Source: Thiogranum longum
GTDB lineage: Bacteria; Pseudomonadota; Gammaproteobacteria; DSM-19610
Reading direction: 5' to 3'
DNA: 64,000 nt
Assembly: GCF_004339085.1 (NCBI RefSeq)
Contig: NZ_SMFX01000001.1
Location: 2,389,352-2,453,351, forward strand
The position numbers were made by a program, and so were the translations under genes. Numbering within the stretch: the stretch's first letter is position 1; the number at the start of each line of letters is the position of its first letter. The notes under the pieces are model-generated. The model did no database searches. It saw only the letters and a list, made by a program, of their open reading frames with translations, and was not told where the DNA came from. This document shows, in pieces, positions 38,082 to 52,174 of the stretch.

Positions 38082-39695
38082 TCAGAAAGGTTTTTTGGTG
38101 TTAGTTACCAGTGAAAGCGATTGTTTCTGATTCTTCTTGCGGGCCATCGTGCTGGCTTCCTTACAACTGCTGTGAACGACAACACGATTACGCCCGCTGG
38201 CCTTGGCCTCGTACAGCGCCTTGTCTGCCGAGCGCATAAGGCGGGATAACGAGCCCTCGCCCAAACGGCCTGAATAACAGCTGATACCTGCACTGACCGT
38301 CATCGGGATTCGCACACCCTGGTACGTTGCCGGTGATTCACTGACCAGTTCGCGAACCTTCTCGGCCAGCGCCACATTACCATCCGGGTTCTCCGACACG
38401 TTGAGAATAAGGAACTCCTCACCACCAATTCTGAATAACTGGTCATTGGCCCTGGAGTTATGTTTCAACAGACGTGCAAAGTGCACCAGCACAGCATCAC
38501 CGCCGAGGTGGCCATGCTCATCGTTGACAGCTTTGAAGTAGTCCAGGTCCAGCAGGATCGCTGTCAGATAACGGCCGTCACGTTCAACCTGGGCAAACAG
38601 TCCGGGAGTGACTTCCTGTAGATAGCGCCGGTTGTACATACCCGTAAGACTGTCAGTAATAGCCGTTTCCTGCAGTTTCTTGTGCGCCCGTTTTACTTTG
38701 GCTTTTTCACGCCGCAGGGCATCCAGCACATCAGCGAACCGGTTCAGCAACAGGTCGAGTTCGGTGCGTGACTCATTCCTGTCCAGAACAGGCAGGCGCC
38801 CGTGGATCATGGCTTCGGTCGTCTCCATAAGCTGTGCGAGCGGACGACGGAAGTTCCGCACCATCAACCAGCCAAGCAGCAAAACTGTAAGGCCGCCCAG
38901 GAATGAAAACGCGTAGGCCCAGTACCGGTAGCGGTTCAACATGTGTATCAGGCGTGTTTCCGAAGCCGCAAACCAGAGACGTGGAATTTCCGTTCCCGCT
39001 TCCGGCAGATCAACTTCATGCAGGTAAAATGACCGCTCGGTATCGACAACCATCTTGCTGGCCCGATTGATCTGGAAGCCCCGGTAGTCGGGGTTACTAC
39101 TCCATAACACACGACCGTCACTTTCGAAAAAGATCAGGTATTCGCCGGAGTTGCTTTCCTGCTGCTGTAACCAGCTGTCACCAAGGAGGCGGGCAACGGC
39201 ACTGGTTGCAAGCGTCTCTCCCTGATATACAAGTGGCTGCACTGCCACCATGACAGGGCCATCCGGCGACATGAAGAAAAATTTTTCACGGCTGGTTGCT
39301 TTTTTTCGCTGACGCAGCGCATTAATCAGTCTTGAGTATTTTGCCCCGTACAACACCTCTCCACTACGTGAAAGAATCACATGCGCATCGGTCGGCAGTG
39401 AACTGAACTGGCGATCATAATACGACGCAAGGGCTTCACTGCTGGCACCAAGCTGAACGATGATGTAGATATGTTCCTGCAGACGAAGGTCGTTAACGAT
39501 AATATCCGTGTAATTGAGTAACTCATCGCCCTGATGACGAACGGACTCCTGCTTGCGCATGGCCGCATGCCTGAGGTGCTCTCGAGAACCGGAAACCACA
39601 ATATCCGTTGCCGTTTTGAACGAAAGCAACATCATCCCTGTGAGTAGTGCGATCAGCATCCCTACGTATATAAATATACGGGATGTATAATTCAC
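38082..39695 (-). CDS. Membrane-bound diguanylate cyclase with periplasmic sensor
   Basis: A 537-residue protein: TM1 (about 9-27), a periplasmic sensing domain (about 30-258, Cache-like), TM2 (about 262-282), a HAMP-like segment, then GGDEF (about 350-510). The active site RIGGEEF is intact, with a RAND (RxxD) inhibitory site five residues before it, so active, feedback-inhibited c-di-GMP synthesis is expected. A basic tail follows. It overlaps the upstream small periplasmic protein gene by 4 bp, suggesting that protein modulates the cyclase. Confidence 0.88.
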   Translation of the reverse strand: MNYTSRIFIYVGMLIALLTGMMLLSFKTATDIVVSGSREHLRHAAMRKQESVRHQGDELLNYTDIIVNDLRLQEHIYIIVQLGASSEALASYYDRQFSSLPTDAHVILSRSGEVLYGAKYSRLINALRQRKKATSREKFFFMSPDGPVMVAVQPLVYQGETLATSAVARLLGDSWLQQQESNSGEYLIFFESDGRVLWSSNPDYRGFQINRASKMVVDTERSFYLHEVDLPEAGTEIPRLWFAASETRLIHMLNRYRYWAYAFSFLGGLTVLLLGWLMVRNFRRPLAQLMETTEAMIHGRLPVLDRNESRTELDLLLNRFADVLDALRREKAKVKRAHKKLQETAITDSLTGMYNRRYLQEVTPGLFAQVERDGRYLTAILLDLDYFKAVNDEHGHLGGDAVLVHFARLLKHNSRANDQLFRIGGEEFLILNVSENPDGNVALAEKVRELVSESPATYQGVRIPMTVSAGISCYSGRLGEGSLSRLMRSADKALYEAKASGRNRVVVHSSCKEASTMARKKNQKQSLSLVTNTKKPF

Positions 39696-40192
39696 GGAGC
39701 GTGTTCCCGCGCAGTTTTCAAAGGCAGCAGGTTGTACTCAGCAGCAACCTTGCGGAATACCGGGCCGGTCTGTACTTCGTTTATTATCTTTACAACATCG
39801 TCAGACGGATGCTGGTCGGTCACCGCTGACAGCTCGCGATAGAAAGGATACTTCTTCAGGCGCAGGTTTTCCGGTGTCGGCATGACACCTCCCACACTCA
39901 GCGGGCAACAGACCATCCCGAAGGTTTCGTTATCCGGGCGGTTCTGCAATGCCGTCTTGATGTCCGCATTGCATCCCATCCCCAGCGTGGAGTTACGACC
40001 ATGCAAAATGATGGAGCGCCCGGAGACTTCTTCCAGGTCGCAATTGAGCCTGTCAAAAATCACCCACACAAAATGCACACCGGCACCGGTAATCACATTG
40101 TCGGTGTCTGCGTACAGGGATTTAACCGGGGTAATGAAGGCAACAAGGAGTCCGGCGAAAATGCCGATCAGCCTGATCAAGTTTTTCGTCAT
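39692..40192 (-). CDS. Small periplasmic protein coupled to diguanylate cyclase
   Basis: A 166-residue secreted protein with a signal peptide of about 27 residues (ending VKSLYA). It resembles half of a PstS/PhnD-type periplasmic binding domain (ITGAGVHFVWVIFDRL; RPDNETFGMVCCPLS) but is too short for a full two-lobe binding protein. Four cysteines (CD, CN, CC region) could form disulfides. Its stop overlaps the diguanylate cyclase start by 4 bp (ATGA). I infer a ligand-binding modulator of that cyclase; the family is not certain. The 254 bp upstream hold a palindrome at 40295. Confidence 0.65.
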   Translation of the reverse strand: MTKNLIRLIGIFAGLLVAFITPVKSLYADTDNVITGAGVHFVWVIFDRLNCDLEEVSGRSIILHGRNSTLGMGCNADIKTALQNRPDNETFGMVCCPLSVGGVMPTPENLRLKKYPFYRELSAVTDQHPSDDVVKIINEVQTGPVFRKVAAEYNLLPLKTAREHAP

Positions 40193-40294
40193 AAATACAG
40201 CCCTGTTTAAAAATCTTGCGCGTACGTTGCAAAAAGCAAGACGGCATCAATAAGTACTGTGCTCCGATTCACTAACGGCAAAGCGTCAAAAATC

Positions 40295-40306
40295 TGAACT
40301 AGTTCA
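40295..40306. promoter_or_regulatory. 12-bp palindrome upstream of the small periplasmic protein gene
   Basis: A perfect palindrome, TGAACTAGTTCA, flanked by A- and T-rich runs, about 105 bp upstream of the start at 40192. It could be an operator for an unidentified dimeric regulator. It does not match LexA, Fur or Pho-box consensus sequences. Confidence 0.3.
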
Positions 40307-51196: not shown

Positions 51197-52174
51197 TTAC
51201 TGCAGCTTGAGCAATTCCTTGTCGACAACCGACTTCGGCAGCGGGATGTAGCCGTCCTTGATGACAACATTCTGGCCCGGGCGGGATAACACCAGCTTCA
51301 GGAACTCACGCTCCAGGGGTGGTAGCGGCTTGTTCGGATGCTTGTTCACGTAGACATACAGAAAGCGTGACAGCGGGTACTTGCCGGTAATGGCATTTTC
51401 AGACGTTGCTTCAACAAACGGCTGCCCGTCCTTTTTGGCCAACGGCACAGTACGCACACCCGAGGTGGTATAACCGATACCGGAATAACCAATGCCGTTT
51501 AGCGAGGAAGAAACCGACTGCACAACCGAAGCAGAACCCGGTTGCTCATTTACGTTGTTCCTGTAGTCGCCCTTGCACAAGGCTTTCTTTTTGAAGTAAC
51601 CGTAAGTCCCGGAAACCGAATTGCGGCCATAGAGCTGAATGGTACGGTTTTTCCAGGCGCCTTCCAGGCCCAACTGGCCCCAGCGCGTGATATCTTCCGG
51701 GTAGCCGCACTTGCGGGTGGATGAAAATATTGCATCAACCTGTGGAATTGTCATGCCCTTGACCGGGTTGTCCTTGTGTACAAATACCGCGAGCGCATCG
51801 ATTGCGACCCGGATCGGGGTCGGCTTGTAACCGTAGCGGCGCTCGAAAGCTTCCAGTTCCTTGTCCTTCATCTTGCGACTCATCGGACCCAGGTTTGAAG
51901 TGCCTTCGGTCAGTGCAGGCGGTGCAGTGGAGGAACCTGCCGCCTGGATCTGTATGTTGACGTTCGGGTATGCGCGCTTGAATTCCTCGGCCCACAGGGT
52001 CATCAGGTTGGCCAGGGTATCTGAACCGACACTGGACAGGTTGCCGGATACGCCACTGACGCGGTTATAGTCCGGTATACCGGAATCTACCCTGGATTCT
52101 GCCATCAGCGAACTGCTGAAACCCAGTACGGCCGACAGCACGCCGGCGACCAGTGTGTGTTTACGTAAAGCCAT
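51197..52174 (-). CDS. pstS: Phosphate-binding protein PstS
   Basis: The periplasmic phosphate receptor of the Pst importer, 325 residues with a signal peptide (about 1-25, ending SSSLMAES). Family blocks: [75 protein letters not shown] and [25 protein letters not shown] precedes the ATG. It is transcribed separately from pstCAB, with its own Pho-box-like site and terminator, downstream of phoB-phoR on the same strand. Confidence 0.94.

Follow-up and report, generated by a model that had tools for sequence, protein, structure and literature searches.

According to the excerpted report, the Vibrio cholerae polyamine substrate-binding protein (SBP) NspS binds the membrane c-di-GMP enzyme MbaA and changes its activity (PMC8967002). 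In the AioX/ArxX/ArrX-AioS systems an SBP serves the sensing of arsenic oxyanions, and an extract of the study describes a pocket cysteine that binds arsenite (PMC5908839). YfiR, in the excerpted part of PMC3375315, is a periplasmic protein encoded with the membrane cyclase YfiN, which it controls. An extract of PMC7589609 describes the engineered D1 form of TmArgBP, in which residues 20-114 are joined to residues 207-233, as a protein that folds and binds arginine at about 3 uM.

The gene pair described here lies in a window of 64,000 nucleotides, the whole stretch of Thiogranum longum DNA that was analysed (contig NZ_SMFX01000001.1, positions 2,389,352 to 2,453,351). The conserved entity is a full-length, four-cysteine SBP together with a cyclase, and the "small half-binding protein" of the window is a deletion form found in a single genome. 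The original prediction had recognised a secreted protein of 166 residues overlapping a cyclase by 4 bp, and both open reading frames, with the 4 bp that they share, were recovered in our analysis. The features of the locus are as follows.

40283..40299, minus strand: 17-bp upstream element GTTCAGATTTTTGACGC, perhaps a promoter or operator, recognised by sequence identity
40295..40306, no strand assigned: palindrome TGAACTAGTTCA, overlapping the 17-bp element
39692..40192, minus strand: secreted one-lobe SBP of 166 aa, PstS-like four-cysteine type minus lobe 2, from ORF and alignment
40109..40192, minus strand: Sec-type signal peptide of this SBP, spanning residues 1-28 with cleavage ahead of D29, both read by eye
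39899..40108, minus strand: N-terminal arm of lobe 1, residues 29-98, with C74 (GCNA) and C95-C96 (CCPL), from alignment
39895..39902, minus strand: deletion junction, 8 bp GCTGAGTG, aligning to L021, the nearest relative, at either end of its 378-bp lobe-2 stretch, from alignment
39695..39898, minus strand: C-terminal arm (residues 99-166), which by PstS homology comprises the return strand and the C-terminal helices of lobe 1
38082..39695, minus strand: membrane diguanylate cyclase of 537 aa, with TM, periplasmic CHASE4-like sensor (about 30-255), TM/HAMP and GGDEF (345-504), from Pfam and alignment
38931..39608, minus strand: periplasmic sensor region of the cyclase, residues 30-255, used for the co-occurrence and rate tests

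The GGDEF domain of the cyclase is matched by PF00990 in Pfam (E 7.2e-39, 133.6 bits), and alignment places GGEEF at residues 424-428 and an RxxD I-site at R415xxD418. Having both the GG[DE]EF motif and the PF00990 match of an active GGDEF diguanylate cyclase, the protein is predicted to be active. Its Pfam matches to CHASE4 and HAMP fall below the cut-off. At E<=1 neither Pfam nor NCBIfam has a family that matches the 166-aa protein, and a PDB search with it by itself returned chance-level matches only. AlphaFold runs on two-row alignments (window and L020) gave mean pLDDT values of 38.9 and 37.8, and the assignment as half of an SBP rests on sequence alignment.

Homologues of the window protein were found in nine of 56 genomes of relatives, its own included. 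Judged by raw ORF, the other eight are 291-329 aa long, and the alignment of the window protein to them falls into two segments. The profile built from these eight full-length relatives matches it at positions 1-98 and 223-290 of 291, with nothing between, and this, with the PF12849 matches of the relatives, bears out the proposal that it is half of a PstS-like binding protein. At the DNA level the two arms are 83% and 80% identical to those of the nearest relative (L021, record JALVCM010000361.1), and the two alignments overlap by the 8 bp GCTGAGTG at the junction, an 8-bp microhomology. The points that meet there lie exactly 378 bp, or 126 codons, apart in all seven nearest relatives, and the present-day repeat sites of L021 match at six of eight bases. 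The window SBP is an in-frame deletion of exactly 378 bp at short direct repeats. By alignment, the 126 residues taken out would be lobe 2 together with the first crossing strand, within lobe limits that we take from homology to PstS. PF12849 calls for two lobes joined by two crossing strands, which the window protein does not have. Elsewhere in its own genome no full-length copy of the SBP was found at E<=0.1, only two distant PstS-like genes, and none of the 37 related loci lacks lobe 2. A PstS-like gene with a 330-aa frame, distantly paralogous to the SBP family (E 3.5e-5), is also present in the window, part of it at 51329-51808 (minus strand).

Besides the window, the 37 loci comprise eight from relatives' genomes, 13 from 369 genomes of the class, where members were taken at E below 1e-50, and 16 from 24 genomes of another order. 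L019 (E 0.003), L101 and L102 (both E about 1e-31) and class hits between 1e-20 and 1e-28 were dropped before any count and are taken as ordinary PstS-type paralogues; near L101 and L102 the sole GGDEF match is weak and lies over 1 kb further on. A frame break splits the SBP gene in two of the 37 loci, L075 and L098, which were counted as loci and kept outside the 35-row alignment. At L075 (5041-6124) and L098/L100 the SBP stands in two frames and the cyclase is open, a state that may reflect either sequencing error or further losses.

Full-length relatives measure 291-339 aa by raw ORF, and four cysteines are invariant in all 35 aligned rows (C77, C98, C99 and C168 in L024 numbering): one in GCNAG, two in CCPL and one in the lobe-2 motif HCKxRPGHW. 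The several cysteines first noticed in the window protein are C51, C74, C95 and C96; the last three occupy family-invariant columns, C51 is a gain, and the fourth invariant cysteine was lost with lobe 2. PF12849 (PBP_like_2) matched all seven full-length relatives scanned, at 43.8-71 bits against a gathering score of 27, and TIGR02136 (PstS) reached 59.5-80.9 bits against a cut-off of 206.6, falling below it in all four scanned. Identity with the PstS of a phosphate ABC transporter was rejected, given the TIGR02136 scores and immediate neighbours that consist of the cyclase and unrelated genes. In some own-family loci pstB- and phoU-like genes, assigned by eye, lie 5-7 kb upstream, behind other genes. 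A PDB profile search returned 29 sequences at E<=1, mostly phosphate-binding proteins, with 4q8r and 4gd5 as the best solved relatives. Membership of the AioX family, by AioX/PhnD homology, was also rejected, as none of 6ESK, 6EU7 and 6ESV stands among these 29 matches. In a phylum sample of 398 genomes, only four besides the window's own matched at E<=1e-35 (about 1e-45); these distant SBPs (L107-L110, also L103-L106) show the same cysteine pattern by eye. A plasmid search with the full-length SBP gave no match. Among the literature matches listed, mostly from non-subscription journals, the titles and abstract beginnings held no account of a four-cysteine SBP family or of the pair.

Coupling to the cyclase, the second element of the original prediction, is supported by the rest of the family. 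A gene for a homologous sensor lies directly downstream of the SBP gene, on the same strand, in 36 of the 37 loci, which is the conserved gene pairing expected of an SBP-cyclase co-receptor; in the seven own-family relatives the two genes also share the 4-bp overlap. The output domain is GGDEF in 32 loci, a kinase in one and uncovered in three (L021, L095 and L096), where the sequence stops ahead of it. The kinase is encoded at L070 (3796-5619, minus strand), where a homologous sensor, aligning to residues 3-328 of the window cyclase, is joined to HisKA and HATPase_c with no GGDEF; judged by these domains, the partner would be an output swap from cyclase to histidine kinase. The sole locus with no same-strand sensor partner is L028 (6416-7348), where a convergent ABC_sub_bind histidine kinase follows. 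Among the 24 genomes of the second order, 18 have both SBP and sensor and the remaining six have neither. Genomes independent of one another would match in this way with a chance of 1 in 134,596, but these are not independent; 15 of them reach a completeness of 90% or more. Because the pair stands in differing chromosomal surroundings in different groups, its linkage is more than shared synteny. The co-occurrence search proposed at the outset, with failure of the pair to recur in other genomes as the result to fear, instead found the pair conserved.

The partners of the distant SBPs, encoded on the same strand 3' of them, are all HAMP membrane proteins: GGDEF-EAL proteins at L109 and L110, a hybrid histidine kinase at L108, and at L107 a HAMP-GAF protein in which no output domain was detected, followed by a CheR gene. 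CHASE4 rises above its cut-off in two of these four partners, supporting a CHASE4-like sensor. As a clue to the ligand the neighbouring genes gave nothing, since no recurrent neighbour except the cyclase pointed to one.

Of the 20 genomes of the window's own order, 15 have the sensor and eight have the SBP. Six of the seven extra sensor-bearing genomes were examined, G009, with a weak sensor match, being left out. In five genomes of the genus (L118, L120, L121, L123 and L125) the cyclase is followed by an asparagine-synthetase-like gene, as in the window, and the 6 kb read at each holds no SBP gene or remnant. A hydantoinase B gene lies directly upstream in L118, L123 and L125, as in the window; in L120 and L121 it is missing as well, and arginine genes are nearer. 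L119 is partly masked, and its upstream neighbour differs. The five SBP-less loci form two groups on a GGDEF tree in which some branches are weakly supported, suggesting at least two losses of the SBP.

Relative to GGDEF, the sensor evolves roughly twofold faster in the SBP-less genomes taken together, and most of them individually show a faster sensor. Branch totals give a sensor/GGDEF ratio of 6.3 for SBP-less lineages (8 branches) versus 3.2 for lineages that have the SBP (9 branches, of which one has zero length), some individual ratios being inflated by very short GGDEF branches. The topology was fixed for this comparison, and branches above both kinds, L021 (contig end) and L119 (masked) were left out. 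We read the difference as a sensor freed from constraint once the SBP was gone. One SBP-less lineage, L118, is not accelerated (ratio 3.4). L122 and L124 (G011 and G016) carry a second, paralogous cyclase whose sensor is 26-27% identical; it has no adjoining SBP gene and adjoins a gene that by eye resembles citrate synthase.

The 17-bp upstream element is identical in all eight SBP-bearing family loci (window and L021-L027) and is still present in three of the five SBP-less genomes (L118, L120 and L123). In the window's own genome there is a single site for a longer form of 27 positions when at most 3 mismatches are allowed. The palindrome TGAACNNGTTCA occurs at 13 genomic places versus one for its reversed control, and its sites possibly mark the regulon of a regulator. 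Scans for sigma-70 promoters and terminators found nothing above chance.

The retained arms remain under purifying selection. In a joint codon-model fit of arms and cyclase (fitted to the arms only, the model yielded branch lengths that were saturated and unstable), omega on the window branch is 0.16, with profile support from about 0.1 to just under 0.3, against a background of 0.095 (p 0.066), and an omega of 1 is rejected (p 2e-12). This argues against a non-functional remnant, that is, a secreted fragment heading for loss beside a cyclase that works alone, as does the preservation of signal peptide, frame, overlap and upstream element. We put the remnant at somewhat short of an even chance, because the cyclase occurs without the SBP in five genomes and because the window arms carry 11 amino-acid changes versus one in the sister (p 0.006; cyclase 18 versus 15). 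Six of the 11 fall at sites invariant in the family's other seven sequences, including G77D in GCNAG. Against this, only four window residues are unseen in the 35 relatives, which themselves range from 0 to 26, and the intact L026 has 10 changes at otherwise invariant sites; the sister branch of the window is itself unusually conserved (p 0.006). In the PDB profile alignment G77D aligns with the glycine of a loop in PstS proteins that we take to be their anion- or phosphate-binding loop, which argues for lost ligand binding. Signs of acceleration in the window sensor are mixed. The sensor/GGDEF ratio since the L024 split, 3.16, resembles that of SBP-bearing lineages and goes against a remnant, but a large part of this branch is older than the split from L021. 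After the latter split the sensor has 17 changes in the window versus 9 in L021 (p 0.17) and the next 101 residues 0 versus 4, a contrast in favour of a remnant (Fisher p 0.026, the regions having been picked afterwards). The data do not separate a recent deletion from a half protein with a remaining role or from constraint that is starting to relax.

Purifying selection on both arms together would also suit a functional one-lobe regulator, a small ligand- or redox-responsive protein that controls the cyclase through its retained cysteines, of which three of the invariant four are kept and one is gained. Its occurrence in one genome only, the absence of the fourth cysteine and of the whole of lobe 2, and G77D in the putative anion loop make such a regulator improbable, even though the extract of PMC7589609 shows folding and ligand binding by one SBP lobe on its own. 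The idea of the small half protein as a purpose-built, ligand-dependent regulator is the part of the original prediction that finds no support here, for the protein is a deletion form that has lost lobe 2 and the fourth invariant cysteine. The junction occurs in no second genome, as would be expected if the true gene were full length and the gap an assembly or sequencing artefact. We regard such an error as very unlikely: the genome is one contig rated 100% complete, the deletion is exactly in frame, the arms differ from the sister gene by 17-20%, and repeats of just 8 bp are not long enough to confuse an assembler. Finally, a repressor of the YfiR type would be an unrelated small periplasmic protein that inhibits the cyclase; it would share with yfiR-yfiN, as excerpted from PMC3375315, the encoding of a small periplasmic protein with a membrane cyclase. 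The window protein matches no Pfam family at E<=1 and strongly matches the PstS-like SBP profile; this homology contradicts a YfiR-type identity, to which we give next to no credence. The likeness to YfiR had been proposed in logic and not in sequence, and it stands in the second respect, with no YfiR match found; in the first, NspS-MbaA and AioX-AioS are the closer analogues.

We consider it probable that the pair is an SBP-cyclase co-receptor with the logic of NspS-MbaA and AioX-AioS, and that the window SBP is a probably recent single-lobe allele whose ligand gating has likely been lost. This reading draws on the 378-bp deletion, the conserved pairing, the joint presence of SBP and sensor, the output swap, the invariant cysteines and the rate ratio, as well as on the distant homologues that precede HAMP proteins and on the engineered single lobe that folds in the extract of PMC7589609. 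The intact co-receptor would consist of two genes. Its periplasmic PstS-like SBP, with four cysteines placed by homology in the ligand cleft, would bind a ligand, perhaps a thiophilic metal, metalloid or sulfur species, and dock on the periplasmic sensor of the cyclase encoded directly downstream, and thereby set c-di-GMP synthesis. In the window genome, deletion at short direct repeats took out lobe 2 in frame and left a secreted lobe 1 that may still fold. Lobe 1 cannot close over a ligand and is therefore probably ligand-blind, and the half SBP may remain in contact with the sensor and keep the cyclase fixed in one state. Several points go against the co-receptor reading: the purifying selection on the arms fits a still-functional half protein as well as lost gating, L028 has no sensor partner, sensors occur without the SBP in the genus, and L118 is not accelerated. 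More tentative, and on balance doubtful, is the further proposal that the natural single-lobe SBP is a ligand-independent or thiol/metal-gated co-receptor that locks the cyclase in one state, derived from a four-cysteine, PstS-like sensory SBP family whose membrane partners have a common sensor type and, as output, a cyclase, a cyclase-phosphodiesterase or a kinase.

With this pair, the SBP co-receptors that govern c-di-GMP gain a PstS-like branch rich in cysteines. One genus offers a natural series of full SBP, half SBP and no SBP, all with an orthologous cyclase, which permits asking which part of the SBP touches the sensor and what a receptor does after the loss of its binding protein; the four cysteines open the class of ligand to direct test.

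With NspS-MbaA the pair, known here from its sequence, shares a periplasmic SBP and a membrane c-di-GMP enzyme. NspS has a polyamine ligand and MbaA is a bifunctional cyclase/phosphodiesterase, whereas here a PstS-like, four-cysteine SBP stands beside a GGDEF-only partner, and in the window the SBP is without one lobe. AioX-AioS likewise uses an SBP as sensor, and its kinase AioS resembles the L070 partner; AioX, however, resembles PhnD, while the SBP profile matches PstS-type entries. The full-length relatives match PF12849, and PstS-type proteins are their closest solved structures, from which they differ in the four invariant cysteines and the sensor partner, and the window form in the absence of lobe 2. 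YfiR-YfiN is similar in that a periplasmic protein is encoded beside a membrane cyclase and different in family, the window protein having no YfiR match (no hit to any family of Pfam or NCBIfam at E<=1). The closest parallel to the half protein itself is the D1 form of TmArgBP, as its report is excerpted: in both, the N-terminal and C-terminal parts of lobe 1 are joined after removal of lobe 2, in D1 by a linker in the laboratory and in the window naturally and directly.
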